Shown one piece after another: positions 29,066-62,399 of a stretch of DNA of 64,000 nucleotides. The number at the start of each line of letters is the position of its first letter. Positions within the stretch are counted from its first letter, which is position 1. Below the pieces are notes generated by a model that saw only the letters and a program-made list of their open reading frames with translations, had not been told where the DNA came from and made no database searches. Origin of the DNA: Sphingopyxis sp. FD7 (GTDB taxonomy: Bacteria; Pseudomonadota; Alphaproteobacteria; Sphingomonadales; Sphingomonadaceae); contig NZ_AP017899.1 of NCBI RefSeq assembly GCF_003609835.1, positions 124,001-188,000 on the forward strand. The letters run 5' to 3'. The translations under genes were made by a program, and so were the position numbers.

Positions 29066-29075
29066 CCTCTCGTTC

Positions 29076-30883: not shown

Positions 30884-30884
30884 G

Positions 30885-33551: not shown

Positions 33552-33963
33552 CCCGGCAGGGGGCTGCTGCGTTGAACGGTTCAGCGGCCCGACAGGCTAC
33601 TGCCCAGTTTCAGCAGTTTCGCGTTATGCGTATCGATCGAGAGGCTCCGAACAGTAAGCTCGTCTGGCCGCCACGAGGGGAATCCAGCTCATCGGACAAG
33701 CAACTGCTGAACTGCGGCAAAGCAGACGAAATGAGCTTAGCGTACGCTTATAACCAGATTCTGCGATGCCCCCTTGGCAATGCAAACAACCGTCCCGCTC
33801 CAATCCTCACTGGAGGAAACCTCGGGATCAGGTCATCGCAACCAGAATCTTGAAAATCCTGAGGCAGGATCAGGAGTTAAGCACGCATTCGACGCACGCG
33901 GCGTTGCTTCCGACTCCCCTTCCATCTACTCTTGCGAACGTTGAACACAGTCGAAAGTATTGC
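33552..33963 (+). other. Intergenic region between Res and the AddB-like gene
   Basis: About 410 bp. A frame from 33461 to 33853 is open but overlaps the res 3' end and lacks any recognisable content. The gap suggests the nuclease-helicase pair has a separate promoter; near the end TTGAAC and TATTGC-like boxes occur just before the start codon, without convincing spacing. Confidence 0.4.
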
Positions 33964-42542: not shown

Positions 42543-42681
42543 ATGATGCCCGATCCTGTCCGTTTTCCCGTCATTATGCGATCTTGTCCGAATCGCCGTT
42601 ACAGGTCCAGAGTTAACGGACATATTCCTGTTGGCCGCCAGAGGACCGTCTGACGGACACGCAAAGCGAAGGAGATGATGC
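42543..42681. promoter_or_regulatory. Presumed res site and divergent promoters
   Basis: The 139-bp gap between divergent tnpR and tnpA, the usual position of a Tn3 res site. I could not delimit individual resolvase binding sites. Confidence 0.45.
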
Positions 42682-45639
42682 TTGGCGAGACGGCGACTGG
42701 TGAGCCTGGAAATCTGGGCGAGGCATTATGGCGCGCCGCTCGATGAGCGCGAGATCGCGCGTCATTATACGCTGACCAGCGACGACCTGGAAATTGTCGG
42801 CCGCCGTCGCGGCGATGCCACCCGGCTCGGCTATGCGATGCTCATGCTATATATGAGATGGCCTGGCCGTGCGCTGGAAGCGGGCGAAGTCCCGCCCGCT
42901 CCTGTGCTCGCCTATGTGGCGCAGCAACTCGGCGTCGCGCCGGCAGCCTTCGCGGATTATGCCCATCGGGACCAGACCCGTCGCGAGCATCTCGTCGAAA
43001 TCCGACGATCGCACGGGTTCAGGATTTTTGACCGCAACGCTTTCCGTGAAGTTGTCGCCTTCTCGGTCCCAATCGCGCAGACCATCATACACCCCGGCCA
43101 GATGGCAGACGTCATCGTCGATGAACTCCGGCGCCTGCAGATCCTCCTGCCTTCTCCGTCGATTCTCGAAGCGGTGCTGCGGCGGGCGCGCCAGCAAGCC
43201 GAACAGCTTACCTATGAAGTGCTCACGAATGGCCTGCTGCCTGACACCCTTCAGGGCCTGGACGATTTGCTGGCCCGACGACCGGGGCAGGTCGCGACAT
43301 GGCTATCCTGGATGCGCAATGCGCCACAATCGCCGGCAGCGCGCAACATCCTGCGCCTGATCGAACGGCTCGCCTATATCCGCGCGCTGGGCCTCGATCG
43401 CGCCCGTGCCGACATGATCCCGGCTTTGACTTTTGACAGGCTGGCGGACGAAGGCAGCCGCATCACACCCCAGCACCTTGGCGAACTCAATGCCCTGCGC
43501 CGCCATGCGACGCTGGCGGCAACCGGCATCCGGCTTGAGGAAAGCCTGACCGACGCCACCCTGACGATGTTCGACAAGCTGTTGGGCAGCATGGCGCGCC
43601 GCGCCGAGAACCGGACCCGCGACAAAGCCCTCAAGACGGTGCGCGAGTTGCAAGGCCACCTCCGGACGCTCACGGGGTCTTGCCGCCTCCTCATCGACGC
43701 GCGCAGCAAGGGCGTGGATTCTCTGGCGCAGATCGAGGCGCTGGACTGGCAGCACTTCGCCGTGGCCGTCGAGCAGGCCGAAGTGCTCGGGCGACCGGAA
43801 ACCGTCGATCGCACCGCCGAATTGATCGAGCGGCATCGGACGGTGAAGCTCTTTGTCGGCGCTTTTCTCAACGCCTTCGAGTTTCGCGGCGCCGGCGCGG
43901 TTCAGGGGCTCCTGTCAGCGCTGGCCATCATCGCGGAGCTATATCGGACCGGCAAACGGCGCTTGCCTGATCGCGTGCCGCTACGCTTTGTGCCGCCCGC
44001 ATGGCGCCCGTTCGTCCTGCGGGATGGCATCGTTGATCGTGCCGCTTATGAACTATGCGCCTTGTCGCAACTACGCGAGCGGTTGCGAGCCGGGGATATA
44101 TGGGTCGCGGGAAGCCGGCAGTTTCGCGATTTCGACAGCTATCTCATACCGCCGGCGACCTTTGCGGCGCTGCGCGAGAAGGGGCCGTTGCCGCTCGCCA
44201 TCGAAACGGATTTCGAGCGCCATATCGAGGAACGGCGCACCAGGCTCGACACGGCGATCGAGCAGGTAACGGTCCTTGCACGGCAAGGGGAGCTGCCCCA
44301 GGTTAAGCTTGACGAAAACGGTCTCATCATCTCGCCGCTGAAGGCGGCAACACCGCCCGCCACCGAGATTGCCCGTCGCGCCGCCTATGATCGACTGCCG
44401 CGCGTGAAGATCACCGATCTTCTGCTGGAGGTCGATGCCTGGACCGGGTTCAGCGAATGCTTCATCCATCGTCGTTCGGGCCGGGAAGCCGACGATCGCA
44501 ATGCGCTGCTCACGGTCATCCTCGCCGATGGCATCAATCTCGGCCTCACACGCATGGCGGAAACCTGCCGGGGCGCAAGTCTGCGTCAGCTCGCCCATCT
44601 TCACGACTGGCACATCAGCGAAGCCGCCTATGGCGAAGCGTTGGGAAGGCTGATCGACGCCCATCGCGCCATGCCGCTCGCCGCGCTGTGGGGAGACGGC
44701 ACCACTTCGTCGAGCGACGGACAGCAATTTCATGCCGGGGGCCGTGGGGCCGCGATCGGCGACATCAACGCGCGCAGCGGCAACGAACCAGGCGTTGCCT
44801 TCTACACCCATGTCTCGGATCGATATGACCCCTTCGCAAGTCGGGTGATCGCGGCGACCGCTGGCGAAGCGCCCTATGTGCTGGATGGCTTGCTGTATCA
44901 CCAGACCGGCCTGACGATCGAGGAGCACTACACCGATACGGGCGGGGCATCGGACCATGTGTTCGGCCTCATGCCCTTCTTCGGCTACCGCTTCGCGCCG
45001 CGCCTGCGCGACATCAAGGAGCGTCGTTTACACCTCCTTCCCGGCCAAGAATCCGGCCCCTTGCTTGCCGGCATGACGGCCGAACCGATCGCATTGGGTC
45101 ATGTCGCGGCGCATTGGGACGAACTGCTGCGGTTCGCCACGTCGATCCGCACCGGCACCGTCACTGCTTCGGCAATGCTGCGCCGCTTGTCCGCCTATCC
45201 GCGACAGAACGGACTGGCCCTCGCACTACGCGAGCTGGGCCGCCTCGAACGCTCCATTTTCATGCTCGACTGGCTGCGCGACATCGACCTGCGCCGGCGC
45301 ACCCAGGCGGGCCTCAACAAAGGCGAAGCCCGCAACGCGCTCGCCCGCGCGCTCTTCTTCAACCAGCTCGGCGAACTGCGCGATCGTCGGTTCGAGAACC
45401 AGACCTATCGCGCCTCCGGCCTCAACCTGCTCGTCGCCGCCATCATCTTGTGGAACACTCGCTATCTCGAAATGGCGCTGGCGGACATCGGCACAGCCGA
45501 CGAAATCGCACGCCACATCGCGCCATTGGGCTGGGAGCATATCTCGCTGACCGGTGACTATAGCTGGAATGTTGAAGATCAACCCGATCCGGACGCCTTG
45601 CGACCGCTGCGCGCCGTCAACTCCCTACTTGCCGCGTGA
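42682..45639 (+). CDS. tnpA: Tn3-family transposase
   Basis: A 985-aa Tn3-type DDE transposase. The N-terminal DUF4158-like domain (LVSLEIWARHYGAPLDEREIARHYTL) is followed by the catalytic core: LEVDAWTGFSECFIH, the ALWGDGTTSSSDGQQF signature, and NTRYLEMAL near the end. The start is TTG 42682 with GGAG upstream. The protein is the normal size for the family and appears intact. Confidence 0.93.
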   Translation: MARRRLVSLEIWARHYGAPLDEREIARHYTLTSDDLEIVGRRRGDATRLGYAMLMLYMRWPGRALEAGEVPPAPVLAYVAQQLGVAPAAFADYAHRDQTRREHLVEIRRSHGFRIFDRNAFREVVAFSVPIAQTIIHPGQMADVIVDELRRLQILLPSPSILEAVLRRARQQAEQLTYEVLTNGLLPDTLQGLDDLLARRPGQVATWLSWMRNAPQSPAARNILRLIERLAYIRALGLDRARADMIPALTFDRLADEGSRITPQHLGELNALRRHATLAATGIRLEESLTDATLTMFDKLLGSMARRAENRTRDKALKTVRELQGHLRTLTGSCRLLIDARSKGVDSLAQIEALDWQHFAVAVEQAEVLGRPETVDRTAELIERHRTVKLFVGAFLNAFEFRGAGAVQGLLSALAIIAELYRTGKRRLPDRVPLRFVPPAWRPFVLRDGIVDRAAYELCALSQLRERLRAGDIWVAGSRQFRDFDSYLIPPATFAALREKGPLPLAIETDFERHIEERRTRLDTAIEQVTVLARQGELPQVKLDENGLIISPLKAATPPATEIARRAAYDRLPRVKITDLLLEVDAWTGFSECFIHRRSGREADDRNALLTVILADGINLGLTRMAETCRGASLRQLAHLHDWHISEAAYGEALGRLIDAHRAMPLAALWGDGTTSSSDGQQFHAGGRGAAIGDINARSGNEPGVAFYTHVSDRYDPFASRVIAATAGEAPYVLDGLLYHQTGLTIEEHYTDTGGASDHVFGLMPFFGYRFAPRLRDIKERRLHLLPGQESGPLLAGMTAEPIALGHVAAHWDELLRFATSIRTGTVTASAMLRRLSAYPRQNGLALALRELGRLERSIFMLDWLRDIDLRRRTQAGLNKGEARNALARALFFNQLGELRDRRFENQTYRASGLNLLVAAIILWNTRYLEMALADIGTADEIARHIAPLGWEHISLTGDYSWNVEDQPDPDALRPLRAVNSLLAA

Positions 45640-45651
45640 CGTTCGCTATCC

Positions 45652-45696
45652 GTTCGCCCTTTCCGTGCAGATACGTCACTTTCGTGTAGTCACCCC
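45652..45696 (-). repeat. Right terminal inverted repeat of the first Tn3 transposon
   Basis: 45 bp ending in GTGTAGTCACCCC, complementary to the left end at 41099-41143 except at two positions. Confidence 0.92.
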
Positions 45697-47040
45697 ATGC
45701 TGATGATGGATTTGTCAGCAGCGGAGACGAGTCATGACGGAGACGGTGAAATACGTTGGTCTGGACGTTCATAAGGAAACCATTGCGGTCGCGGTTGCCG
45801 ATGGGGAACGCGGAGGCGAGGTGCGTTTCGTCGGCACGGTCGCCAACGAGGACGATGCGATCAGGAAGCTGGTCAAGCGGCTGACTGGACCGGGCGTGAC
45901 GTTGAACGTCTGCTACGAAGCTGGTCCCTGCGGGTATGGCTTGCATCGGCTGCTGACGAAGCTGGGACAGAATTGCATCGTCATCGCCCCCTCGATGATG
46001 CCGCGGCGCCCGGGTGACCATGTAAAGACGGACCGGCGTGACGCGATGACCCTGGCGCGGCTGCTACGCGCTGGCGAACTCACCGCAATCTGGATACCGG
46101 ACGAAGCGCACGAGGCGGTACGCGATCTCATCCGCGCGCGACGCAGCGCGCAAGATGATGCCATCGGAGCCAAGCAGACAGTGCGCAGCTTCCTGTTGCG
46201 TCATGATCGTCGTTTCGGCGGCAAGGCGGCCTGGACGAAAATGTACTGGCGGTGGTTGTCCGAGCAGCGGTTCGATTTTCCCCACCAACAGCTGGCATTC
46301 GAGGAAATGCAGAAGCGGGTGCTGGAGGCGCAGGCACGGGTTGGGCGCTTAGAAGCGGCGCTGACTGAAGCGGTGGACGCATGGTGTTTTGCGCCGCTGG
46401 TCCGCAATCTACAGGTCCTGCGCGGTATCAGGCTGGTCAGCGCTGCGACGCTGGTCGCTGAAGTAGGCGATCTCACCCGCTTCGACAATCCCAAGCAACT
46501 GATGGCGTATGTCGGCTTGGTGCCGTCCGAGCACTCCAGCGGCGCTCGGACCAAACGGGGCCGGATCACCCGCGCGGGCAACGCGCAGGCACGAACCATG
46601 CTGATTGAGGCGGGCTGGTCGTATCGACTGCCCGCTCGCGAGGAACGACGCTACCGTGAGCGGGTCATCGACTTGTCCGAGGACATCCAGGCGATCGGGT
46701 GGAAAGCGCAGGTTCGCCTGTGCCAGCGCTACCGTCGCCTGGCGGCCACGGGCAAGCCTCAGCCCAAGGTGACCACCGCGATCGCGCGTGAACTGGTCGG
46801 CTATGCCTGGGACATCGCCCGTCGGGTGTCGCCGGCGATAGCCGGCTGATCCACCCACGACATTAACGAGAGGAGGCGCCAGCGCACCAACTGCATAGCC
46901 TTGGCCGGCGTGCCGCGGGCACCCGACTGTGATGGGCAATCCACGGTGTACGGTGGGGCAGGTTCGTCCGACGCCCGAACTTAGACGGAGGATAGGCCCA
47001 GCGACGGATACGGGTAGTGCGGTAATCAACCCGCGGATGA
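45697..47040 (+). mobile_element. IS110-family insertion sequence, second copy
   Basis: A transposase gene with a 37-bp 5' flank that begins directly after the Tn3 terminal repeat, and a 3' non-coding flank of unclear length (I set about 190 bp). The elements of this family that target Tn21-type ends are well known; here the Tn3 repeat is complete and the element abuts it. The right limit is an estimate. Confidence 0.6.
45734..46849 (+). CDS. IS110/IS1111-type transposase
   Basis: A 371-aa DEDD recombinase: YVGLDVHKETIAVAV (D near 11), CYEAGPCGYGLHRLL (E near 60), KTDRRDAMTLARLL (DxxD near 100), and C-terminal LMAYVGLVPSEHSSGARTK followed by ITRAGNAQARTMLIEAGW. It is unlike the first IS110 copy in sequence and belongs to a different subgroup. 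Intact. Confidence 0.9.
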   Translation: MTETVKYVGLDVHKETIAVAVADGERGGEVRFVGTVANEDDAIRKLVKRLTGPGVTLNVCYEAGPCGYGLHRLLTKLGQNCIVIAPSMMPRRPGDHVKTDRRDAMTLARLLRAGELTAIWIPDEAHEAVRDLIRARRSAQDDAIGAKQTVRSFLLRHDRRFGGKAAWTKMYWRWLSEQRFDFPHQQLAFEEMQKRVLEAQARVGRLEAALTEAVDAWCFAPLVRNLQVLRGIRLVSAATLVAEVGDLTRFDNPKQLMAYVGLVPSEHSSGARTKRGRITRAGNAQARTMLIEAGWSYRLPAREERRYRERVIDLSEDIQAIGWKAQVRLCQRYRRLAATGKPQPKVTTAIARELVGYAWDIARRVSPAIAG

Positions 47041-47621: not shown

Positions 47622-47650
47622 TGTAAGATATCGCTGTCCGCAGCGACCAA
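47622..47650 (+). promoter_or_regulatory. Predicted ECF sigma promoter, copy 1
   Basis: TGTAAG (47622-47627), 16 bp, CGACCAA (47644-47650), 51 nt before the start of the oxidoreductase-nrtS-sigma-antisigma operon. The same two blocks with the same spacing recur at 49842 and 53560. Confidence 0.7.
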
Positions 47651-47700
47651 GGCATGTGACGAGGCAATGAAGGCAATGAAGGCAAGGGGCGGCAAGTGGA

Positions 47701-48825
47701 ATGACAATAAGGATGGTCCTCGCAGGTGGCGGTCATGCCCATCTCGCGGTGCTCGCCGACTGGATCGGTGTGCCGCCCGAGGGCACCGAGCGCTGGCTCG
47801 TGACGTCGCATCGCCAGACCGCCTATTCGGGCATGCTCCCCGGCTGGATGGCCGGGGATTACCCGGCAGAGGCGCTCACGATCGATCTTGAACCGCTCGC
47901 GCGGCTGGCCGGTGCGCGGCTGGTGATCGCCGACGTCGTCGGCCTCAATCCCGAACGGCATCTCCTCGATCTTTCGACCGAAGTGCGCCTCGGCTTCGAT
48001 CTGCTGTCGCTTGCCACCGGCGGCGAAAGCGATGTTTCGCATCTGGCGGCACTTGGTGACCGCCTGCTGCCGGTCCGTCCCGTTCTGCCTTTCATGGCCC
48101 GTTGGGAAGCCTTTGTGGCGGGAAGGCAAGGGCGCACGCTGACGCGCGTCGCGGTGGTTGGCGGCGGCGCCGCAGGGGTCGAACTTGCGCTCGCCGCCGA
48201 GCGGTCGCTGCGCCGCCAGATCGGCGGAACGACCAAAGTGATATTGGTTGCGCCGCGCGACGCTTTGCTCGCCGGCCACAGCGAGGAGGTCCGCCGCCGG
48301 GCAGGCGACGTCCTTCGCGCTCGCGGTATTGCTTTCCACGAGGGACATGCGGCAGGCGCGCCCGACGGCCTGATGCTGCCCGACGGGACGATGTTGGCTT
48401 GCGACGCGGTCATCGCGGCGACCGGAAGCCGCCCCCCCGACTGGATCGCCGATACCGGTCTCGCGGTGCGCGAGGGCGGATTTGTCGCGGTCGGTTCGGA
48501 CCTTCGTAGCGTGTCGCACCCTGACATCTTCGCGGCGGGCGACATTGTTTCTCGAAGCGACCGCCGTGTCGAGCGCTCGGGGGTCCATGCGGTGAAGGCC
48601 GGTCCGGTGATCGCCGCCAATTTGAAAGCGGCGCTGGCCGGTACGCCGATGCACGACTATATCCCGCGGCGTCGAACCCTTTATCTGCTGGCAACCGGCG
48701 ACAGGCGCGCCATCCTGTCATGGGGAAAACTGACCGCCGGGGGACATCTGGTCTGGCGGCTCAAGGATTGGATCGACCGCCGCTTCGTCGAGCGCTACGC
48801 CGGGTTCGGGCAGTTTCGCTCATGA
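47701..48825 (+). CDS. NAD(P)/FAD-dependent oxidoreductase, NDH-2/SelD-associated type
   Basis: A 374-aa two-dinucleotide-binding-domain flavoprotein. The FAD motif MVLAGGGHAHLAVL is at residue 5, the NAD(P) motif VAVVGGGAAGVELALAAE near 150, and the FAD-binding end SHPDIFAAGDIV near 275. It resembles NDH-2-like proteins that are sometimes fused to selenide dikinase (GHAHL is typical of that group). It probably oxidises NAD(P)H, with an unknown acceptor. It starts at ATG 47701 and overlaps nrtS by 4 nt. Confidence 0.8.
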   Translation: MTIRMVLAGGGHAHLAVLADWIGVPPEGTERWLVTSHRQTAYSGMLPGWMAGDYPAEALTIDLEPLARLAGARLVIADVVGLNPERHLLDLSTEVRLGFDLLSLATGGESDVSHLAALGDRLLPVRPVLPFMARWEAFVAGRQGRTLTRVAVVGGGAAGVELALAAERSLRRQIGGTTKVILVAPRDALLAGHSEEVRRRAGDVLRARGIAFHEGHAAGAPDGLMLPDGTMLACDAVIAATGSRPPDWIADTGLAVREGGFVAVGSDLRSVSHPDIFAAGDIVSRSDRRVERSGVHAVKAGPVIAANLKAALAGTPMHDYIPRRRTLYLLATGDRRAILSWGKLTAGGHLVWRLKDWIDRRFVERYAGFGQFRS

Positions 48826-49049
48826 AGGGGGTCGCGGCTTTGCTTCAACATATGATGGCGCGCCCCGTGGTCGCCAATGCCCTGCGCGTGTCCGCCGTCG
48901 TCGGCACCATCCTCAATGTCATCAACCAGGGCTCCTCGATCTGGACTGGCGTCGGCATCGATTGGCCGCGTCTTGCGCTCAACTATGCGGTGCCGTTCCT
49001 CGTCGCCAGTTACAGTGCGGCGCGTGTTTGCCAGGTGATGGAGGGCTGA
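48822..49049 (+). CDS. nrtS: NrtS-like nitrate/nitrite transporter
   Basis: A 75-aa membrane protein with two helices (ALRVSAVVGTILNVINQGSSI and LALNYAVPFLVASYSAARV). The phrase VVGTILNVINQG and the second helix with VPFLVASY match NrtS, a very small transporter family linked to nitrate/nitrite movement. ATGA overlap with the upstream oxidoreductase and adjacency (0 nt gap) to the sigma gene place it inside the regulatory operon. Substrate here is inferred from the family only. Confidence 0.75.
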   Translation: MKGVAALLQHMMARPVVANALRVSAVVGTILNVINQGSSIWTGVGIDWPRLALNYAVPFLVASYSAARVCQVMEG

Positions 49050-49655
49050 ATGAAGCGCCCGCCGCAACCGCGTCCATCATCAACGCCGATCGATCCGGCG
49101 TTTGTTGCGCGCGTGCGCGGCGACCTGCTTCGTTTCGCGCGTCTCCAGCTCGGCAGTGACGACGAGGCCGAGGATGCCGTACAGGAAGCGCTCGCCGCGG
49201 CGTTGCGCAACGGCGATCAATTTCGCGGCGAGGCGGCGCTCAAGACCTGGGTGATCGCGATTCTGAAGAACAAGATCGCCGACCTCTTGCGCCAGCGCCG
49301 ACGCCGGCCGCTCGGGGCAAGCGAGATGGCAGCCGAGGAGGATGGCGGCACGCTTCCGGCGCTGTTCGACGAGCGCGGCATGTGGCGCGAGGCGGCGCGG
49401 CCCGCAGCATGGGAAGATCCCGAGGCGGGGCTGCACAGCGACCAGTTCCTCGCCATCTTCGACGCCTGCCTCAACCGGCTGCCGGCCCAGCAGGGGCAGG
49501 TGTTCATGATGCGCGAGGTGGTCGAACTGGCTACCGACGAAATTTGCGACGAGCTCGGGCTCACCAGCGGGAATATCCATGTCATCATGCACCGCGCGCG
49601 GCTCGCGCTGCGCGCCTGTCTCCAGCATCACTGGTTTGCGGAGGCAGTGCGATGA
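49050..49655 (+). CDS. ECF-type sigma factor
   Basis: A 201-aa sigma-70-family factor with region 2 (FARLQLGSDDEAEDAVQEAL, then FRGEAALKTWVIAILKNKIADLLRQ) and region 4 (LPAQQGQVFMMREVVEL, then DEICDELGLTSGNIHVIMHRAR). The linker of 70 residues is longer than usual. The next gene encodes a small zinc-finger protein overlapping by 4 nt. The sigma factor probably reads the three TGTAAG-N16-CGACCAA promoters, including its own. Confidence 0.9.
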   Translation: MKRPPQPRPSSTPIDPAFVARVRGDLLRFARLQLGSDDEAEDAVQEALAAALRNGDQFRGEAALKTWVIAILKNKIADLLRQRRRRPLGASEMAAEEDGGTLPALFDERGMWREAARPAAWEDPEAGLHSDQFLAIFDACLNRLPAQQGQVFMMREVVELATDEICDELGLTSGNIHVIMHRARLALRACLQHHWFAEAVR

Positions 49656-49846
49656 TGCTCAATTGCCACGATACGACATTCCTGATGTCGCAGCGCCGCG
49701 AGCGCGATCTCAGCTTTTCGGAGCGCATGAAGCTGCGGCTGCACGCGGGCATGTGCCGCCACTGCGCCAATTTCGAACGGCAGCTCCCGCTCCTTGGCGA
49801 GGCCGCGAAACGCCTCGCGGAGCAAGAGGATGATCATGCTGTGTAA
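49652..49846 (+). CDS. Short zf-HC2 anti-sigma factor
   Basis: A 64-aa protein with C-x-n-H...CRHC (LNCHDTTFLMSQ at the start, AGMCRHCANFERQL at about 34), the zinc-binding anti-sigma signature. There is no membrane segment, so it is a soluble, probably redox- or metal-sensing type. Cysteine oxidation or metal displacement would release the sigma factor; that is inference. The second ECF promoter overlaps its stop codon. Confidence 0.85.
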   Translation: MMLNCHDTTFLMSQRRERDLSFSERMKLRLHAGMCRHCANFERQLPLLGEAAKRLAEQEDDHAV

Positions 49847-49870
49847 GCATTGCCCGTCTCGTGCGACCAA
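49842..49870 (+). promoter_or_regulatory. Predicted ECF sigma promoter, copy 2
   Basis: TGTAAG (49842-49847), 16 bp, CGACCAA (49864-49870), 33-36 nt before the VTT/flavoprotein start codon and overlapping the anti-sigma stop. Confidence 0.7.
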
Positions 49871-49903
49871 TCTCGCCAAAGGCCTCCCGCCGGAAGGAAG
49901 ATC

Positions 49904-52057
49904 ATGAACAAGCGTTTCGTCCTGCTGCTGCTGCTCGTGCTGGCGCTTGCCGCATGGGTGCATTTCGACCTTGGCGACTGGCTGACGCTCGAGGCCCTGA
50001 AATCGCAGCAGGCGGCGATCGACGGCTATTTTCGCGCCAACCCGCTGCTTGTGGCGGGGCTGTTCTTCCTTGTCTATGTCGTGTTGACAGCGCTTTCGGT
50101 CCCCGGCGCGGCGATATTGACGCTCGCCGCAGGGGCGATTTTCGGTCTCTATTGGGGGACGCTGATCGTCTCCTTTGCCTCGACGATCGGCGCGACCTTC
50201 GCGTTTCTCGCCTCGCGCTATCTGTTCCGCGACGCCGTCCAGGCACGCTTCGGCGACCGGCTACGGCGCGTCAATGAGGGCATCGCCCGCGACGGCGCCT
50301 TCTATCTGTTCTCGCTGCGGCTCGTGCCGGTCTTTCCTTTCTTTGCGGTCAATCTGCTGATGGGGCTGACGCCGATCCGCACCGTCACCTATTTCTGGGT
50401 CAGCCAGCTCGGCATGTTCCTCGGGACCATCATCTATGTGAATGCAGGCACCCAGCTCGCGCGCATCGATGCGCTGTCCGACATCGCCTCGCCGGGCCTG
50501 CTCGCCTCCTTCGCCGCGCTCGGGCTGCTGCCCTGGATCGGCAAGTGGATCATGGCGGCGATCAAGCGTCGCCGCGTATATGCGCGCTTCAACCGCCCGC
50601 GCCGCTTCGATCGCAATCTCGTCGTGATCGGCGCTGGCGCGGCGGGACTGGTATCCTCCTATATCGCGGCGACGGTGAAGGCGAAGGTGACGCTCGTCGA
50701 GGCGTCAAAAATGGGCGGCGATTGCCTCAACTATGGATGCGTGCCGTCGAAGGCGCTGATCAAGTCGGCGCGCATTGCCGAGCAGATGCGGCATGCGGAC
50801 CGTTACGGACTTGTGTCGGCGTCGCCGCAGATCCGTTTCCGCTCGGTGATGCAGCGCATCCACGACATCATCGCAGCGATCGAGCCGCACGACAGCGTCG
50901 AACGCTACACCGAGCTTGGGGTCGATGTGGTGCAAGGCTATGCCCGGATCGTCGATCCCTGGACGGTCGAAATCGCGCGCAATAACGGCGAAATCCAGCG
51001 GCTCACGACGCGCGCGATCGTCGTCGCGGCAGGGGCGGAGCCGGTCGTCCCCGATCTGCCTGGGCTTGCCGACTCGGGGTATCTGACCAGCGATACGCTG
51101 TGGGAGGAATTTGCTGCGCGTGACACCATGCCGCAGCGCATCATCATCCTGGGCGGCGGGCCGATCGGTTCGGAACTGTCTCAGGCTTTCGCGCGGCTCG
51201 GCGCCGACGTCGCGCAGGTCGAACGCGGCGCTCGTCTGCTGCCGCGCGAGGACGATGAGGTGTCGCAGCTGGCGCGCGATGCGCTCGAAGGCGCTGGCGT
51301 CGAGGTCTTGACCGGGCATGAAGCCTTGCGCGTCGAAGGGACCGAGGGCGATCGGCACCTGATCGTTCGCGATGCCAGCGGCGAACGCGCGATCGCATTC
51401 GACGCGCTGATCGTCGCGGTCGGGCGCAAGGCGCGCCTGTCGGGCTATGGGCTCGAGGATATCGGCATCGAAACGCAGCGCACCGTCGTCACCGACGAAT
51501 ATCTCGCGACCGTCTATCCCAATATCTATGCCGCGGGCGATGTCGCCGGACCCTATCAGTTCACGCATAGCGCGGCGCACCAGGCCTGGTACGCCAGCGT
51601 CAACGCGCTGTTCGGCCAGTTCCGGCGCTTCAAGGCGGATTATCGCGTCATCCCGTGGACGACCTTCATCGACCCCGAAGTCGCTCGCGTCGGGCTCAGC
51701 GAGGCCGAGGCGATCGAGAAGGGCGTTGCTTTCGAAGTCACACGCTATCCGCTCCACGAACTCGACCGCGCGATCGCGGACTCGGCGACAACGGGTTTCG
51801 TCAAGGTCCTGACCCCGCCGGGCAAGGACCGGATCCTCGGGGTCACGATCGTTGGCGAACATGCCGGCGAACTGCTTGCCGAATATGTGCTCGCCATGAA
51901 GCATGGTCTGGGCCTCGGAAAGATTCTCGGGACCATCCACACCTATCCGACGATGGCCGAGGCGAACAAATATGCCGCGGGCGAGTGGAAGCGGGCGCAT
52001 GCGCCCGAGCGCCTCCTCAAGCTGGTCGGGCGCTATCATGACTGGCGGCGCGGATGA
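49904..52057 (+). CDS. VTT-domain membrane protein fused to mercuric-reductase-like flavoprotein
   Basis: A 717-aa fusion. Residues 1-215 are a TVP38/TMEM64 (VTT/SNARE-associated) membrane domain with about six hydrophobic helices and FSLRLVPVFPFFAVNLLMG. Residues 235-717 are a class I pyridine nucleotide-disulfide oxidoreductase: VVIGAGAAGLVSS (about 240), redox pair GGDCLNYGCVPSK (Cys about 272 and 277), IILGGGPIGSEL and NIYAAGDVAGPYQF, with TIHTYPTMAE near the end. It lacks the CC tail of true MerA, so the substrate is probably not mercury. Possibly couples disulfide or metal reduction to membrane transport. Confidence 0.88.
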   Translation: MNKRFVLLLLLVLALAAWVHFDLGDWLTLEALKSQQAAIDGYFRANPLLVAGLFFLVYVVLTALSVPGAAILTLAAGAIFGLYWGTLIVSFASTIGATFAFLASRYLFRDAVQARFGDRLRRVNEGIARDGAFYLFSLRLVPVFPFFAVNLLMGLTPIRTVTYFWVSQLGMFLGTIIYVNAGTQLARIDALSDIASPGLLASFAALGLLPWIGKWIMAAIKRRRVYARFNRPRRFDRNLVVIGAGAAGLVSSYIAATVKAKVTLVEASKMGGDCLNYGCVPSKALIKSARIAEQMRHADRYGLVSASPQIRFRSVMQRIHDIIAAIEPHDSVERYTELGVDVVQGYARIVDPWTVEIARNNGEIQRLTTRAIVVAAGAEPVVPDLPGLADSGYLTSDTLWEEFAARDTMPQRIIILGGGPIGSELSQAFARLGADVAQVERGARLLPREDDEVSQLARDALEGAGVEVLTGHEALRVEGTEGDRHLIVRDASGERAIAFDALIVAVGRKARLSGYGLEDIGIETQRTVVTDEYLATVYPNIYAAGDVAGPYQFTHSAAHQAWYASVNALFGQFRRFKADYRVIPWTTFIDPEVARVGLSEAEAIEKGVAFEVTRYPLHELDRAIADSATTGFVKVLTPPGKDRILGVTIVGEHAGELLAEYVLAMKHGLGLGKILGTIHTYPTMAEANKYAAGEWKRAHAPERLLKLVGRYHDWRRG

Positions 52058-52458
52058 GGCGTGACGGGAAATTGTCGCAGCGGTGTAACCGTGCGGGAAA
52101 AGGCTTCGAACCTGCAAAGATGCGCGGCCTGTTTTTCCTTTTGCTGATCCTGTTTGCAGGCGTGACCGCCACGGTGATGCCCGCAAGCGGTTTTGATGCC
52201 ATATCCAGCGCGCAATGCTGCGAAAGCGGCTGCCCTCTGCCTGACGGCTGTGAGCAAGCCTCGATGGCGTGCAAGCGCGCCTGTTCGGCCGCAATTCTCC
52301 CCGCCAACCCACAACCGGACGCGCCGGCGCCACTTGCCTTCACCGAGCGCGATGCGGCGGTTCGCTTGAATTCCTTGACGCGAAATCCACCCGTTCCCCC
52401 GCCGCGCGGCTTCGCGATATCCGACTTCAACAAATCGACATCAGGAGAATTGACATGA
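52054..52458 (+). CDS. Cysteine-rich exported protein
   Basis: A 134-aa protein translated from an ATGA overlap with the flavoprotein gene (an internal ATG at 52120 would give a tidy signal peptide, MRGLFFLLLILFAGVTATVM). After the hydrophobic segment comes a cysteine cluster: CCESGCPLPDGCEQASMACKRAC. The C-terminus is proline-rich. Possibly metal-binding or thiol-active in the periplasm. I recognise no family. Confidence 0.65.
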   Translation: MRRDGKLSQRCNRAGKGFEPAKMRGLFFLLLILFAGVTATVMPASGFDAISSAQCCESGCPLPDGCEQASMACKRACSAAILPANPQPDAPAPLAFTERDAAVRLNSLTRNPPVPPPRGFAISDFNKSTSGELT

Positions 52459-52586
52459 AATTTGCTGCAAAACTTATCGCCATCACGGCGCTGCTGTCTT
52501 CGGGAACCGCCTATGCGGCGGCTCCTGTGGCCGTGGTCCAGGCCTGCTGCGCGCTTGCCGCGTGCTGCGGTTTGCCGTGCTGCTAA
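52455..52586 (+). CDS. 43-aa cysteine-rich secreted peptide
   Basis: ATG 52455 follows CAGGAG and overlaps the upstream stop. MKFAAKLIAITALLSSGTAYA is a clear signal peptide; the mature part AAPVAVVQACCALAACCGLPCC would have only about 22 residues with six cysteines as three CC pairs. It resembles a metallothionein or a cysteine-rich precursor peptide, but no modifying enzyme is present. It is followed by a very strong hairpin that may stabilise its message. Confidence 0.7.
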   Translation: MKFAAKLIAITALLSSGTAYAAAPVAVVQACCALAACCGLPCC

Positions 52587-52596
52587 GACTCTAGGC

Positions 52597-52626
52597 GGGC
52601 GGGGGCCGGGCATCCGGCCCCCGCCC
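52597..52626 (+). other. Perfect 13-bp hairpin between the peptide and doxX genes
   Basis: GGGCGGGGGCCGG (52597-52609) is complemented without mismatch by CCGGCCCCCGCCC (52614-52626), loop GCAT, without a T-run. It could be a message-stabilising stem or partial attenuator giving more peptide than DoxX. Confidence 0.75.
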
Positions 52627-52669
52627 AAGCGCGCGAAGGTGCGCTCAATCTCGAAAAGAAGGACGACCG

Positions 52670-53095
52670 ATGAAAGCCCAATCGCTGCTCTTGCTCCGGA
52701 TCGGAACCGGATTGCTGCTCGTCGTGTGGGGCATGATCCGCCTCGCCAGCCCCGACAAGGGCGCGGGCGTCAGCGTCAAATATTATGCCGGGCTCGGCGC
52801 CAGCGATACGATCCAGCTCGTCTGGGGCGCGATCCTGCTGGTCGTCGGATTGCTCACGATTCTCGGGCTCTTCCGCCGGTTCGCCTATACAGCGCAAGCG
52901 GTCATTCTGGTGACGGGGGCGCTTTCGATATGGAAATATCTGCTCGACCCCCTCGGTCTCTGGCTCCTTGATCGTGACAGCAGCCAGGTCCTTTTCTTTC
53001 CGTCCCTCGCGGTCGCCGGCGCGACCCTCGTGCTGCTCGCTTTTCGCGACGAAGACCGGATTGCGCTCGATCGCATGCTGGCGCGGCGCGGCTAG
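52670..53095 (+). CDS. DoxX-like membrane protein
   Basis: A 141-aa protein with four predicted helices (LLLLRIGTGLLLVVWGMIRL, IQLVWGAILLVVGLLTILGL, YTAQAVILVTGALSIWKYLL, VLFFPSLAVAGATLVLLAF). It matches the DoxX/DoxD superfamily of quinone-linked membrane subunits. DoxX genes accompany small cysteine-rich metal-binding peptides in other ECF-controlled clusters. AAGAAGGA precedes the ATG. Its stop and the convergent thioredoxin stop share one CTAG. Confidence 0.8.
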   Translation: MKAQSLLLLRIGTGLLLVVWGMIRLASPDKGAGVSVKYYAGLGASDTIQLVWGAILLVVGLLTILGLFRRFAYTAQAVILVTGALSIWKYLLDPLGLWLLDRDSSQVLFFPSLAVAGATLVLLAFRDEDRIALDRMLARRG

Positions 53096-53478
53096 CGGGC
53101 GCGTTCGAGCATCGCCACAATCTCGTCCTCACGCGTCGCGGCGCTTGCCGCGACGCGCAGCGAGCCTTTGTAGATGTGGAGCATGCCATAGCGCTTCGCA
53201 CCGATCCGTTTCCAATCGGCATCGGTCGTCTTTTCGCCGATGCGCAAGAAGAGGGTGTCGCGGTACCGTTCGCGCTGCAGCAGCCCCGACAGGACGGGGC
53301 CGCGCACGCGGCATGGCAGGCACCAGGGCGCATAGGTTTCGACGACGATGGTTCGTCCTTCGCGTTGCGCCTCGGTGAATCGGACCGCGTCGAAGGCCGT
53401 GGGGCTTGCGGAAGCCGCGCTCACGGCGCCCGGGGTTGCGGCGAGCAGAATTCCAAGCGCGGGCCAGATGGGCGCCAT
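53092..53478 (-). CDS. Periplasmic thioredoxin-like protein
   Basis: A 128-aa protein with signal peptide (PALGILLAATPGAVSAASA) and a thioredoxin fold: IVVETYAPWCLPCRVRGPV (CxxC WCLPC near residue 52), GMLHIYKGS, and terminal helix. The cis-Pro before the third strand is not conserved in the usual form. It is convergent with doxX, and no copy of the module's sigma motif lies in front of it. A disulfide donor or acceptor for the cysteine-rich peptides is a reasonable inference. Confidence 0.8.
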   Translation of the reverse strand: MAPIWPALGILLAATPGAVSAASASPTAFDAVRFTEAQREGRTIVVETYAPWCLPCRVRGPVLSGLLQRERYRDTLFLRIGEKTTDADWKRIGAKRYGMLHIYKGSLRVAASAATREDEIVAMLERAR

Positions 53479-53559
53479 ATACGCATCTCCTTCGTCATCA
53501 ATACGCCCGGGGCCGCGCGCCGGTTACAGGACGTCGCCCCAAATCGGCATTGCAGCGAC

Positions 53560-53588
53560 TGTAAGGAATGGCGCCGCACGGCGACCAA
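53560..53588 (+). promoter_or_regulatory. Predicted ECF sigma promoter, copy 3
   Basis: TGTAAG (53560-53565), 16 bp, CGACCAA (53582-53588), 52 nt before the TonB-receptor start codon. Confidence 0.7.
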
Positions 53589-53640: not shown

Positions 53641-56600
53641 TTGACCCTTTTCCCGCGTCTCACGGCCGGTGCAACTGCATCGGTCCTTGCAATCGGCTTC
53701 GCGCTTCCCGCCGCGGCGCAGCAGGCCGGCATCCAGATTGCCGTGGTCGCCGACGATGGGCGCCCCTTGGCGGATATCGACGTGCTGGTCGAGAACCCGG
53801 GCATCGGCTTGCGCCGGGTTGTGCGAAGCGACGCACAGGGACTGGCGCGGATCGAAGGACTGACTACCGCCGGCGAATATCGCGTGTCGGCGCTGGCAAA
53901 CGAGCGCTTTGAGTCCGGGGAGCCCGCGCGCCTTTCGTTGCGTGCCAATTTTTCGAGCAGCGTGACGCTGCGGCTTGCCCCCGCCGGGGCCGCGATTGTC
54001 GTGACCGGCAAGCGCGGCATCACCGCGCTCAACAGCGTCAACGCCGAGGTGTCGGCATCGCTCGGCGAAGAGGAGCTTGCCGCGCTGCCGATCGAGGGGC
54101 GCGACGTGCTCGGCGCGCTGGTCCGGCTCCCGGGCGTCGTACCGTCAACCGGCTTCTTCCCCGAAGCGCCGTCGATATCGATCAACGGGTCGAACGGCCT
54201 CGACACCAATTATCTGATCGACGGGCTCGACAATAACGAGAATTTCCTCGGCGGGATCAAATTCCCGGTGCCGCTCGGCTTCACGCGCGAAGTGACCGTG
54301 CTCGCGAACAGCTATTCGGCGGCCTATGGCCGCACCGCCAACGGCATCGTCAACTATACGACGCCATCGGGCACCAATGATTATCATGGCGAAGTCTATG
54401 CGCTGGTACGGCCGGGGCGTCCGTTCGATGCCCGCTCGCCCTTTCCGCGCCGCGACCTTTCGGGCAACGCGGTCGGTGAGAGCTTCGAGCGCTATCAGGC
54501 CGGTGCGAGCCTTGGCGGACCGATCGCGCGCGACCGTACCTTCTTTTACGCCAATTTCGAATATACGCGCGATCGCAATGTCCAGATCGTCGATGCGCCC
54601 GCGCTCGGCACCGTTGCCAATGTGACCGGCAACAACCAATTCTACCTCGGTTCGGTGCGGCTCGATCACCGCCTGACCGACGATTGGACGGTCGGGCTGC
54701 GCGCCAATGTCGGCCGCGTTACCATCGATCGCCCCGGCGGGGCGCTCGGCGGCGGCAATGTCACCTTTCCGTCGGCGGGGTCGGACCAGGACCGCTTCTC
54801 GACCCTGGTTGCGGCGACCGCGAGCTATTCGGGCGATGTCTGGAGCTATGACGGCGCGCTCCAGTTCAGCCGCTTTCGCTGGAATTACGGCAAGCCGAAA
54901 GGGCCCGCGGGACCGCAGGTCGCCATCCGCGATCCGAGCGGGCTCACGGTCGGCGTCGTCGGCCACCCGGGTTTTGTCTTCGACGATGTCGAGGAGAGCT
55001 GGCAGACGACGCACCGCTTGCAGCGGCGGCTCGGCAACCACCGCTTGCGCTTCGGCGCCGACCTCATCCATTCCGATTTTTCGCTTCTCGGAGGCGGCAA
55101 TCCCGACGGCAACTACACCGTCGATCTCACCGCTGCCCAGCTTGCCGCAATTGCGGCGGGTGGACAGGGACTCGCGTTGTCGGCAGGCGATGTCCTCGCG
55201 CTCGATCCCGCGGTCGCCAATTATTCGGTGGAGCTCAGGCCGCAGTCCTTCGGCACCGGTCAGACCCAGGTCGCCTTCTATGTCGAGGATGAGTGGCAAT
55301 TGTCGCCGCGCCTCACCGCGACCCTTGGCGTGCGCTGGGACTATGACAGCCTGACCGCCAAGGGCGGCGGGGATGGCGATTATGACAATGTCGCGCCGCG
55401 CTTTGCGCTCAACTACCGGCCTGATGCGCGCTCGACATTGCGCTTCGGCGCGGGCATCTTCACCGGCAAGCTCTCCTACGCAGTGATTTCGGACGCGCTC
55501 CAGCGCAATACAACCTCGGCTGGATTTCTGACCCAGCTGGGGTCACTGCAGGCGCAAGGCTTGATTCCGGCGGGTACCAATCTGTCCGCCTTGACCTTCG
55601 ACGGCAATCTTGGCGTGTCGCCGCCCTGTACGACGGTCTCGGCCTGCCCGACCCCCGCGGAGGTTCAGGCGTTGCGCGGGACCGCGACCCTTGGCGAAGC
55701 GCGCATCCTCAGCCCGACCGGTTATCGCAGCCCGTGGAGTCTCCAGCTGAGCGGCGGCTATCAATATCAGGCGAACGACACGCTGACCCTGAGCGCCGAC
55801 GTCATCTATAGCCGCACGCACAATCTCGCCCGGCTCCGCGACCTCAACGCGCCCGCGCCCTTCACGCCCAATCTTGCCAATTTGACCGCCGCAAATATCG
55901 CGTTGCTGCGGGCACAGGCTGACAATGCGGCGCGGTTCGCGCTCGCCGAGACGCTCGGTCTTGTTCGCTCGCAGGCGGCCGCCGACGCGACGCGGCCGGT
56001 GGCGCTCGTGCCCGGCGGGGCGCGCCAGATCACCGTGTCGGAAACCGCGGGCGAGTCTGAATATAAGGCGCTGATCCTGCAGCTCGCCAAGGCACGCGGC
56101 AGCGATGCTTACGCGTTCCGCTTATCTTATACCTTGTCGAAGCTCAGCAACGATACCGACGACATCAACTTCCGGGCCTCCAATTCCAACGATTTTTCGG
56201 CCGAATGGGGACCGTCGGCCAACGACCGCCGCCACGTTATCTCGGCGGTCGGCTATCTCTATCCGCTTGAGGGTCTGACGCTGAGCGTCGCCGGTCTTTT
56301 CCAGTCCGGCCAGCCGGTGAACCTCGTCCCCGACGCGCGGATCTTCGGGACGCAGGATCTCAATGGCGACGGCGCCTCGTTCGGCGAGAATTTCCTCGGC
56401 AATTCGGACCGTTATCCGGGCGCCGCGCGCAATTCGGCGCGGCTGCCCTGGTCGGCGACGGTCGATGTCGGGGTGCGTTATGCGGTTCCGGCCTTCGACG
56501 GCCGGATCGAGCTCAGCGCCGATGTCTTCAACCTCTTCAACGCCAACAATGAATCGGGCTTTGCGAATGCCGCGACAACGTCCAATCAGGTGCAGTTCGG

Positions 56601-56676
56601 AGGCGGGGCGCCCTTCGTGCAGCGCAATGCCGGGCCGCCGCGCCAGTTCCAATTCGGCGCGGCATGGAAATTCTAG
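53641..56676 (+). CDS. TonB-dependent receptor, Oar-like
   Basis: A 1011-aa outer-membrane receptor. It starts at TTG 53641 with GGAG 6 nt before. The signal peptide (ASVLAIGFALPAAAQQ) is followed by a carboxypeptidase-regulatory-like beta domain (about 28-115), the plug (LGEEELAALPIEGRDV, then SINGSNGLDTNYLIDGLDNN, YSAAYGRTANGIVNYTTPSG) and a barrel ending in FQFGAAWKF with terminal Phe. It probably imports or binds the solute the module is about; the downstream nucleoside transporter hints at a nucleoside-like ligand. Confidence 0.9.
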   Translation: MTLFPRLTAGATASVLAIGFALPAAAQQAGIQIAVVADDGRPLADIDVLVENPGIGLRRVVRSDAQGLARIEGLTTAGEYRVSALANERFESGEPARLSLRANFSSSVTLRLAPAGAAIVVTGKRGITALNSVNAEVSASLGEEELAALPIEGRDVLGALVRLPGVVPSTGFFPEAPSISINGSNGLDTNYLIDGLDNNENFLGGIKFPVPLGFTREVTVLANSYSAAYGRTANGIVNYTTPSGTNDYHGEVYALVRPGRPFDARSPFPRRDLSGNAVGESFERYQAGASLGGPIARDRTFFYANFEYTRDRNVQIVDAPALGTVANVTGNNQFYLGSVRLDHRLTDDWTVGLRANVGRVTIDRPGGALGGGNVTFPSAGSDQDRFSTLVAATASYSGDVWSYDGALQFSRFRWNYGKPKGPAGPQVAIRDPSGLTVGVVGHPGFVFDDVEESWQTTHRLQRRLGNHRLRFGADLIHSDFSLLGGGNPDGNYTVDLTAAQLAAIAAGGQGLALSAGDVLALDPAVANYSVELRPQSFGTGQTQVAFYVEDEWQLSPRLTATLGVRWDYDSLTAKGGGDGDYDNVAPRFALNYRPDARSTLRFGAGIFTGKLSYAVISDALQRNTTSAGFLTQLGSLQAQGLIPAGTNLSALTFDGNLGVSPPCTTVSACPTPAEVQALRGTATLGEARILSPTGYRSPWSLQLSGGYQYQANDTLTLSADVIYSRTHNLARLRDLNAPAPFTPNLANLTAANIALLRAQADNAARFALAETLGLVRSQAAADATRPVALVPGGARQITVSETAGESEYKALILQLAKARGSDAYAFRLSYTLSKLSNDTDDINFRASNSNDFSAEWGPSANDRRHVISAVGYLYPLEGLTLSVAGLFQSGQPVNLVPDARIFGTQDLNGDGASFGENFLGNSDRYPGAARNSARLPWSATVDVGVRYAVPAFDGRIELSADVFNLFNANNESGFANAATTSNQVQFGGGAPFVQRNAGPPRQFQFGAAWKF

Positions 56677-56691
56677 GGGAGGAAAAGGCGG

Positions 56692-57957
56692 ATGGCATGG
56701 CTTGCAAACCTGCAGGGGCTTGTCGGCCTGACGGTGATTCTACTGCTGGCCTGGCTGCTCTCCGAGGATCGCCGCGCGCGGCCCGGCTGGCGCTGGATCG
56801 GCGGCGCGCTGCTGCTCCAGCTCGCCATCGCCTTCGCGGTGACCCGTATCCCCTTCGTCTGGACCCTCGTCGGTTTTGCCAATAGCGCGGTGGCGGCGAT
56901 CGAGAAGGCGACGCTTGTCGGATCGAGCTATATGTTCGGCTATACCGGCGGCGCCCCGATTCCCTTCCTGCTCAAGCCCGGCGCCGAGCCGCCGGTCGTC
57001 ATCGCCTTCCAGATCCTGCCGCTGATCATCGTCTTTTCGGCGATCTCGGCGTTGCTCTGGCACTGGGGCGTGCTGCGCGCGCTGGTTAGCGGGCTATCAT
57101 GGGCGCTCCGCAAGACGCTTGGCGTTAGCGGGGTCGTCGGCCTCGGCGGCGGCGCGACGATTTTCCTGGGCGTCGTCGAATCGCCGCTTGTGCTACGCGC
57201 CTGGTTCGATCGGATGAGCCGCGCCGAACTGTTCATGATCATGGTGATGATCATGGCCACGATCTCGGGCGCGATCCTCATCCTCTATGCCACCACCCTG
57301 GCGAAGACCGTGCCGAACGCGGTCGGCCACATGATCGTCGCCTCCCTCATTTCGCTTCCCGCCGCGGTGCTGGTCGCCCGGATCATGGTGCCGGGCGACG
57401 GATCGCCGGGCGCCGATGCCGCCGAGCCCGACCTTGCCTATGAGAGCAGCATCGACGCTGTCATTCGCGGCACCATGGAGGGCGTTCAGCTCGTCCTCGC
57501 GGTGATCGGCATCATCATCGTCGTCTTCGCGCTCGTCAATCTCGCTGACCAGCTGCTCGCGCTGCTGCCGCCGGCCAATGGGGCGCCGCTGACGCTCCAG
57601 CGCCTGTTCGGCTGGCTGTTCGCCCCCGTGATGTGGGCGATCGGCATTCCCTGGGAGCAGGCGCCCGCTGCGGGCGGGCTGATGGGGACCAAGGCGATCC
57701 TCAACGAATATGTGGCTTATCTCGGCCTTGCCGCCATGCCCGCGGGAACGCTCGATCCGCGCAGCCTGCTGATCACGACCTACGCACTGAGCGGGGTCGC
57801 CAATCTCGCGAGTGTCGGCCTCCTCGTCTCGACCGTCGCGACGCTGGCGCCGGCGCGCCGCCGCGATGTCGCCGAGCTCGGGATGAAGAGCTGGGTCGCA
57901 GGCAATATGGCATCGGCGATGACCGGCGCGGTCATCGGGCTCGTGACCTGGGCCTAG
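56692..57957 (+). CDS. Concentrative nucleoside transporter (NupC family)
   Basis: A 421-aa inner-membrane symporter of the CNT family: N-terminal helix LVGLTVILLLAWLLSEDRRARPGW, the gate region GLGGGATIFLGVVESPLVLR, and the C-terminal substrate motif GTKAILNEYVAYLGLA. CNT proteins import nucleosides with protons or sodium ions. It begins 15 nt after the receptor stop, in one operon. Full length. Confidence 0.9.
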   Translation: MAWLANLQGLVGLTVILLLAWLLSEDRRARPGWRWIGGALLLQLAIAFAVTRIPFVWTLVGFANSAVAAIEKATLVGSSYMFGYTGGAPIPFLLKPGAEPPVVIAFQILPLIIVFSAISALLWHWGVLRALVSGLSWALRKTLGVSGVVGLGGGATIFLGVVESPLVLRAWFDRMSRAELFMIMVMIMATISGAILILYATTLAKTVPNAVGHMIVASLISLPAAVLVARIMVPGDGSPGADAAEPDLAYESSIDAVIRGTMEGVQLVLAVIGIIIVVFALVNLADQLLALLPPANGAPLTLQRLFGWLFAPVMWAIGIPWEQAPAAGGLMGTKAILNEYVAYLGLAAMPAGTLDPRSLLITTYALSGVANLASVGLLVSTVATLAPARRRDVAELGMKSWVAGNMASAMTGAVIGLVTWA

Positions 57958-57961
57958 GACG

Positions 57962-58582: not shown

Positions 58583-58583
58583 C

Positions 58584-62390: not shown

Positions 62391-62399
62391 CGCTTCACG

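Follow-up and report, generated by a model that had tools for sequence, protein, structure and literature searches.

What do three copies of one bipartite sequence, TGTAAG-N16-CGACCAA, do within 6 kb of a Sphingopyxis contig? The copies lie in a 64,000-nucleotide (nt) stretch of Sphingopyxis sp. FD7 (contig NZ_AP017899.1, our C2:124001-188000), here called the window, and each stands upstream of a putative transcription unit. One of the three units encodes an extracytoplasmic function (ECF) sigma factor and a small zinc-binding anti-sigma factor of the soluble zinc anti-sigma (ZAS) type. We consider it very probable that the three sites are promoters of a single circuit, run by the neighbouring ECF sigma factor under its zinc anti-sigma. 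What we say of the sites, of their link to the sigma factor, of the zinc-ligand pattern and of the gene set comes from comparison.

Three sites confined to one locus

The motif TGTAAG-N16-CGACCAA has three exact matches in the window, at 47622-47650 (site 1), 49842-49870 (site 2) and 53560-53588 (site 3), all on the plus strand as the original prediction had it, and 100 dinucleotide shuffles of the window gave none. The prediction had also held that the window contains no further full match, and had proposed a replicon-wide search. The whole genome (3,938,226 bases in two contigs) contains only the same three matches, all within 6 kb and each just before a transcription unit. The reversed pattern has no match in the whole genome, and leaving the spacer free from 14 to 18 adds no match there. 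When up to two mismatches are allowed, the genome has 39 matches including the three exact ones, compared with 76 for the reversed control, so that near-matches are background; two places differ by a single mismatch. Weaker extra sites in this genome were rejected for the same reason.

The sites end 50, 33 and 52 nt before the start codons ATG 47701, ATG 49904 and TTG 53641, within the predicted range of 33-52 nt, and their 16-nt spacers differ in sequence among themselves. Site 1 precedes unit 1 (47701-49846), made of oxr, a gene for an NrtS-like protein, the sigma factor gene ecf and the anti-sigma gene asf, as had been claimed for one copy; the sigma operon would thereby be autoregulated. 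Site 2 precedes unit 2 (49904-53095), which begins with tvpmer, and overlaps the end of asf, whose stop codon lies inside the -35 element of the site. Site 3 precedes unit 3 (53641-59189), which begins with tbdr. Within a unit, neighbouring genes overlap or are separated by no more than 15 nt, except for an 83-nt gap before the DoxX-like gene of unit 2. The predicted linkage of the genes into one switch is kept as three units, while their number has to be corrected from 11 to 12 (4+4+4). Terminator-like matches (16 versus 9.5 in shuffles) and sigma-70-like matches (4 versus 2.2) were left unused.

Conservation of the sites in relatives

A GTDB genome scan found 21 loci with a relative of the ECF sigma factor, labelled L004 onward. 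The Sphingopyxis loci L004-L006 have exact copies of all three, and sites are kept in most of the loci whose proteins are mostly 50-80% identical. Conservation was quantified in 13 loci as the presence of TGTAAG-N16/17-CGAC at most 150 nt upstream of a gene, with the expectation obtained by Markov resampling. This set keeps L004, drops its near-copies L005 and L006, the L014 copy L045, and L011, which has no oxr or tvpmer, and leaves out the distant L016-L024.

Such a site stands before oxr in 12 of 13 loci, before tvpmer in 8 of 13, and before tbdr in 8 of 10. Internal genes have none: ecf (0/13), asf (0/13), nupC (0/8) and cdp (0/8), 0/42 jointly, and the DoxX-like gene (0/3). The resampling expectation is 0.000 for each gene class. 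Where tvpmer lacks a site (L012-L015) it lies closely downstream of asf, and where tbdr lacks one in L043 it begins a few bases after tvpmer, so these genes may share a promoter with the gene before them. The tbdr gene of L012 has a site one base off, with AGACCAA.

Altogether 31 sites were collected, the three of the window included. Their spacer is 16 nt in 27 and 17 nt in four, so the identical spacing first reported is true of the window sites and not of the relatives. Ten bases (TGTAAG and CGAC) are invariant in the collection by choice, because the scan pattern fixes them; the preferences beyond the pattern are [GA][AT]T after the -35 element and [CA]AA after the -10 element. L007-L010 and L042 also share a conserved TGTAAG-N17-CGAC run, which we do not count as a promoter: it is inside a DUF2063 frame in L008, L009 and L010, and the runs in L007 and L042 were rejected by their likeness to these.

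Association with the sigma factor

The exact motif was then sought in 397 genomes of the family. It occurs in seven, of which two (G000 and G340) have three sites and five have one; the G340 sites are those of L014. The reversed control gave 39 scattered matches, at most two per genome. The ECF sigma factor (E value of 1e-40 or better) is present in 5 of the 397, and both three-site genomes are among these five. The five single-site genomes (L030, L031, L032, L034 and L035) were taken as chance, and tblastn found no regulon gene within their 3-kb stretches.

In a second comparison, 14 ECF-bearing genomes (12 kin of the window, Leptothrix and Sphaerotilus) were searched for TGTAAG-N16-CGACMA. 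This pattern has 27 sites in 10 of the 14 genomes, and its reverse has 16. Of the 27 sites, 22 are immediately upstream of oxr, tvpmer or tbdr; three precede a divergent gene, which encodes a DUF1499 protein in L013 and looks similar by eye in L014 and L015, and two are off target. One off-target site, in L050, is inside a long open frame. The other, TGTAAG-N16-CGACCA at 1501-1528 of L071, lies some 40 nt upstream of a LysR-like gene of a Sphingobium genome that has the regulon, and is either a chance match or a further target.

Three of the 22 sites precede TonB-receptor copies away from the sigma locus in two relatives: those of L054 and L072 are on other contigs, and that of L068 is roughly 11 kb along from the locus. 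These copies are 80-82% identical over the available part. The system is therefore self-contained, as first described, in the FD7 genome and not in these two relatives. The promoter assignment itself gains from the comparison: the sites are confined to the locus, the same units carry them in relatives, and genomes with multiple sites carry the ECF sigma factor, all of which points to the neighbouring sigma factor as their probable reader.

A variant of the Neisseria sigma-E switch

The original prediction called the system undescribed. This does not apply to the switch, whose sigma/anti-sigma pair and promoter grammar both follow the Neisseria sigma-E/MseR type (rpoE NMB2144, NMB2145); judged by its sequence, the switch is a variant of that type. 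The ECF sigma factor is 38.7% identical over 95% to a Neisseria gonorrhoeae ECF protein found in two PLSDB records. In the one record fetched, TGTCAG-N16-CGTCTAA lies 2.6 kb upstream of the matched gene, where the record is unannotated, and because of this site we take the gonococcal protein to be sigma-E. PLSDB lists such 2.17-Mb N. gonorrhoeae records (e.g. L089, NZ_CP119142.1) as plasmids; from their length they appear to be chromosomes.

In both systems a ZAS anti-sigma with the pattern Cys-x25-His-x3-Cys-x2-Cys is encoded beside the sigma factor, in an operon that is autoregulated in Neisseria and would be so here. C5, H31, C35 and C38 are invariant in 15 of 15 rows of the anti-sigma alignment. 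Read from its second Met, the anti-sigma of the window has these ligands at Cys4, His30, Cys34 and Cys37; the zinc ligands of meningococcal MseR are at positions 4, 30, 34 and 37 and are said to match RsrA, according to the available part of PMC2893595. The same part gives the neisserial sigma-E promoter as GTMAGBWTT, 12-13 nt, CGTCTAAH. The -35 core GTAAG, which the search pattern fixes in 31 of 31 collected sites, fits the start of GTMAGBWTT, and the bases after it fit fully at 49842 but only in part at 47622 and 53560. TGTAAG-N16/N17-CGAC gives the same distance between elements (9 + 12-13 nt). The -10 element is different, with CGAC (CGACCAA) in the window and CGTC (CGTCTAAH) in Neisseria. 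The targets are different too. The units of the window lack msrAB and the DUF692/DoxX operon, and carry instead a TVP38/FAD fusion, oxr, a TonB receptor, a NupC-type carrier and a peptide with three Cys-Cys pairs.

Both -10 forms occur under one relative. An Acinetobacter portensis plasmid has a 45-46% identical ECF sigma factor and three sites, each directly before an annotated gene: TGTAAG-N17-CGACTAA before arsS, TGTAAG-N16-CGTCTAA before a methyltransferase gene, and TGTAAG-N17-CGTCTAT before a thioredoxin-ccdA pair. Among ECF proteins of the 45-55% identity class, that of Ciceribacter is accompanied by three motif-type sites, and that of Enterobacter asburiae by TGTAAG-N16-CGACTTT before a bufferin operon; a second Enterobacter match (L088:11164) was rejected as it is inside a gene. 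Haemophilus influenzae RpoE2/HrsE is a further parallel, with an ECF sigma factor, a 67-residue cytoplasmic anti-sigma and regulation that takes in a DoxX-type operon (available part of PMC7907618). Unlike the window's switch, it controls msrAB and is tied to hypochlorite; that text gives no promoter consensus for it.

Several observations weigh against the proposed circuit. First, the 16 reversed-pattern matches above mean that single matches say little and that placement counts. Second, three of the family genomes with the ECF sigma factor lack an exact TGTAAG-N16-CGACCAA: in G114 there are CGACAA sites and a CGACCAA site with N17, in G165 there are CGACAA and CGACCCA variants, and G301, on a 5.1-kb contig, has no variant site either. 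Third, no site precedes oxr or tvpmer on the kin contig L044 (5.1 kb), and none was found in L011, which has ECF and asf genes while oxr and tvpmer were not found, or beside the distant ECF genes of L018-L024, where the single near-match of L018 is inside the ECF gene. Related ECF genes of Burkholderia glumae (L074, L079), Klebsiella (L087), Acinetobacter ursingii (L086), Sphaerotilus (L017) and Pseudooceanicola (L075) have no convincing site. Finally, meningococcal sigma-E expression is unchanged by oxidative stimuli in the available part of PMC2893595, so that redox sensing is not assured. In L076 and L077 the TVP38/FAD fusion is present, and neither an ECF gene nor a site was found in the stretch.

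Genes of the three units and how they may be controlled

Unit 1 begins with oxr (47701-48825), a FAD/NAD (flavin and nicotinamide adenine dinucleotide) oxidoreductase with 330.8 bits to TIGR03169 (cut-off 310), followed by the 75-residue NrtS-like protein (48822-49049; 29.7 bits, cut-off 25). In Ciceribacter thiooxidans the two are fused in one open frame (L073 6634-7974) with both parts over their cut-offs, which suggests that they act together. The ECF sigma factor (49050-49655) has regions 2 and 4 and is over the cut-offs of NF008892 and TIGR02943. The 64-residue anti-sigma, whose four ligands are given above (49652-49846), is over the cut-off of NF052368 and just below that of Pfam zf-HC2.

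Unit 2 begins with tvpmer (49904-52057), a 717-residue fusion of a TVP38/VTT membrane domain with a FAD disulfide reductase that has a CLNYGC motif. The nearest PDB entries to the reductase domain are mercuric reductase and lipoamide dehydrogenase, and the domain is below the NCBIfam cut-offs for both. Then come cysA (52054-52458), a Cys-rich protein with a hydrophobic stretch near its N-terminus, cysB (52455-52586), a 43-residue peptide with a signal-like N-terminus by eye, and the DoxX-like membrane protein (52670-53095; PF07681, 23.1 bits, just below the cut-off of 23.6). CysA and cysB have no Pfam or NCBIfam match. All genes of the units are on the plus strand. Between units 2 and 3 lies a minus-strand gene without a site, for a thioredoxin-like protein with a signal-like N-terminus (53092-53478), which on present evidence would be outside the regulon.

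Unit 3 encodes the TonB-dependent receptor tbdr (53641-56676; Plug and OMP_b-brl_4 domains, TTG start), a NupC/CNT-type nucleoside carrier (56692-57957; TIGR00804, 249 bits, below the cut-off of 442) that matches PDB nucleoside permeases at E 1e-57, the CDP-alcohol phosphatidyltransferase cdp (57962-58582; PF01066, 34.7 bits, cut-off 22) and a peroxidase-related, AhpD-like protein (58557-59189; TIGR01926, 90.8 bits, cut-off 81.8; PF02627).

From these comparisons we infer transcription from the sites, release of the sigma factor, its trigger and the purpose as follows. At rest, the sigma factor would be bound by the soluble zinc anti-sigma. Oxidation of the anti-sigma's zinc-cysteine centre, or loss of its zinc to a thiol-seeking metal, would free the sigma factor, and RNA polymerase with this sigma factor would read TGTAAG as the -35 and CGACC as the -10 element. 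Free sigma would then turn on unit 1, its own operon with the oxidoreductase and a small membrane protein; unit 2, with the membrane-bound disulfide reductase, two Cys-rich and presumably exported peptides and the DoxX-like protein; and unit 3, with the TonB receptor, the nucleoside-type importer and two partner enzymes.

What the regulon may be for

Neighbouring genes in relatives concern metals and thiol redox (bufferin, thiol-repair, mercury and 'arsenosugar' genes), and this favours the protection of envelope thiols. Genes for DUF2282, DUF692, DUF2063, DoxX, an ECF sigma factor and NrsF, all over Pfam cut-offs, lie directly upstream of oxr in L010 (3784-7748). The same bufferin/sigma/NrsF cluster is found by sequence in L008 (1766-5772) and L009 (4585-8338), and L007 and L042 have DUF692 genes in the corresponding position. 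Two sigma circuits thus stand side by side in L010, and also in L008 and L009, the bufferin-NrsF cluster being next to the regulon. In L008 and L010 a mercuric reductase that exceeds the TIGR02053 cut-off is encoded close to a MerR-family regulator. On Klebsiella, Enterobacter and A. ursingii plasmids a 44-46% identical ECF gene adjoins DUF692-DoxX genes, and Klebsiella also has msrPQ. We tentatively favour, at slightly less than an even chance, a role in repairing and buffering the thiols of the envelope when thiol oxidants or thiophilic metals cause stress.

The main rival is an uptake circuit. Here the sigma factor would respond to a nucleoside-like or metal-bound compound, either to its shortage or to its presence, by switching on the TonB receptor and NupC-type importer, and the other genes would process what is imported. 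An importer is indeed often a partner of the system, as the TonB receptor and NupC genes are in several loci, and the TonB-receptor copies distant from the sigma locus in two genomes carry the site. In Ciceribacter a gene for a solute-binding protein begins 34 nt after the third site, and a permease-like gene (below the Pfam cut-off) comes next. A Leptothrix site lies between the ECF gene and a divergent solute-binding/permease frame, which we take to resemble E. coli ynjBCDF. In Pseudooceanicola an annotated ABC (ATP-binding cassette) importer is near the ECF gene, without a site. On the other side are the many redox and metal neighbours in relatives and the soluble ZAS anti-sigma, a type for which the available parts of the literature considered report no link to TonB receptors. 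We regard uptake as possible and rather unlikely.

Another purpose, unlikely in our view, is that the regulon makes and serves a new exported peptide that binds a metal or metalloid. The mature end of cysB would then serve as a buffer or metallophore whose making needs no DUF692 enzyme; the TVP38/FAD reductase and the DoxX-like protein would keep its thiols reduced, and the TonB receptor and the NupC-type carrier would re-import it.

The cysB peptide is found in seven places: the window, L004, L005, L006, L007, L009 and L042. Its 14-residue core, ACCALAACCGLPCC, does not vary among the six copies aligned (L005 omitted as a copy of L004); few of these are independent comparisons, because the window, L004 and L006 hardly differ over the whole peptide. 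When the window is compared with L007, L009 or L042, the core shows five synonymous codon changes and no others, whereas the first 29 codons show 6-8 that are synonymous and 15-17 that alter the amino acid. Comparing L007, L009 and L042 with one another gives three synonymous changes and no others for the core, and 8-15 synonymous and 2-4 amino-acid changes for the rest. The search pattern that found these copies did not show the peptide in L008, L010-L015, L043 or L044, and PLSDB plasmids gave no match. The mature end would have about 22 residues (cut site placed by eye) and three Cys-Cys pairs. As a presumably exported peptide under strict selection, cysB is a candidate metal buffer.

Bufferin clusters (DUF2282, DUF692, DUF2063 and DoxX, as in Caulobacter sigma-F/NrsF and Cupriavidus gig) likewise combine a small exported Cys peptide and a DoxX-like protein under an ECF sigma factor, the DoxX-like protein of the window being just below the DoxX cut-off. 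They differ in that the DUF692 enzyme, DUF2282 and NrsF are all absent from the units of the window; DUF692 (MNIO) has no copy at the locus and one on the other contig, at C1:1524577. Caulobacter sigma-F is tied to heavy metals (chromium in the available part of PMC3511200), and Cupriavidus gig to copper and gold, with sigma-factor control assumed rather than shown (available part of PMC10304878).

Less probable again is the handling of organo-arsenic or similar sugar-linked metalloid compounds: the module is accompanied by ArsS and the two 'arsenosugar' glycosyltransferases in gamma- and betaproteobacteria, and sphingomonads would have kept the reductase, the CDP-alcohol enzyme and importers for these compounds. 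The B. glumae and A. portensis plasmids hold the ECF gene, the TVP38/FAD fusion, arsS and TIGR04282/TIGR04283 genes, together with a relative of the anti-sigma and, in B. glumae, also oxr; the A. portensis site with CGACTAA is directly before arsS. On bglu_2p of B. glumae two bufferin clusters, the fusion, oxr, the ECF gene, a zf-HC2 gene, arsS and 'arsenosugar' genes lie within 26 kb, with a merR gene at the edge of this stretch. In 14 genomes that hold the locus or its kin, however, no ArsS is over the family cut-off. Matches below the cut-off occur in 13 of 14 locus genomes but also in 14 of 14 control genomes, and 'arsenosugar' is an annotation name only. We find this purpose improbable.

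Other possible readers or origins of the sites

Something other than the neighbouring ECF protein could bind the sites, either a different sigma factor or a different kind of regulator. TGTAACC-N16-CGAA sites are present in L007, L008 and L010; this agrees with the Caulobacter sigma-F promoter GTAACC-N16-CGAA (PMC3511200, in the part available), a sequence found in relatives that also hold the sigma-F cluster. The EcfG promoter, given as GGAAC-N16-CGTT in the source text available, is different as well. We rejected both assignments for the window sites, whose sequences differ from these promoters; the anti-sigma of the window is ZAS-type, not NrsF. As multiple exact sites occur among the 397 genomes only in ECF-bearing ones, a foreign reader is very improbable. 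That the sites are chance or copied DNA, from repeats or transposon ends, is practically negligible: the locus does lie between two Tn3-family transposase genes, but none of 100 shuffles had a match, the three spacers differ, and sites are conserved in loci with mostly 50-80% identical proteins.

Surroundings in the window

The regulon is flanked by two Tn3-family transposase genes, resolvase-like genes (by eye) and an IS110-type gene, at 41991-46849 and 59385-63017; a search for inverted repeats of at least 30 nt linking the ends of these two Tn3 elements found none. Conjugation genes for a TrwB-type coupling protein and a TrwC relaxase-helicase lie at 19912-25425, so contig C2 is probably a mobile replicon. 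A likely defence island at 26991-33551 consists of a helix-turn-helix (HTH)-IrrE protein (RmrA-like by PADLOC), a small protein and a type III restriction-modification pair. Two long adjacent genes follow at 33766-39803; the second is UvrD/GajB-like and the first has no PADLOC match, and by eye the pair may be an AddB/AddA-type helicase-nuclease.

Implications

What looks new is the set of genes, the way it is conserved in sphingomonads, and the 43-residue peptide. We found no open-licence paper joining TVP38, an ECF sigma factor and mercuric reductase, and none on this system among the titles examined (themes of TGTAAG ECF promoters, arsenosugar with sigma factor, and FAD oxidoreductase). The locus would be a compact regulon, with one sigma factor, one anti-sigma and three promoters for a gene set whose relatives occur beside bufferin, mercury and 'arsenosugar' genes. 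If the peptide reading is true, the cysB system would resemble bufferins and be governed by a sigma switch of the same family. The comparison suggests that a switch of the Neisseria sigma-E type, with an altered -10 element, also drives mobile gene sets in free-living bacteria.

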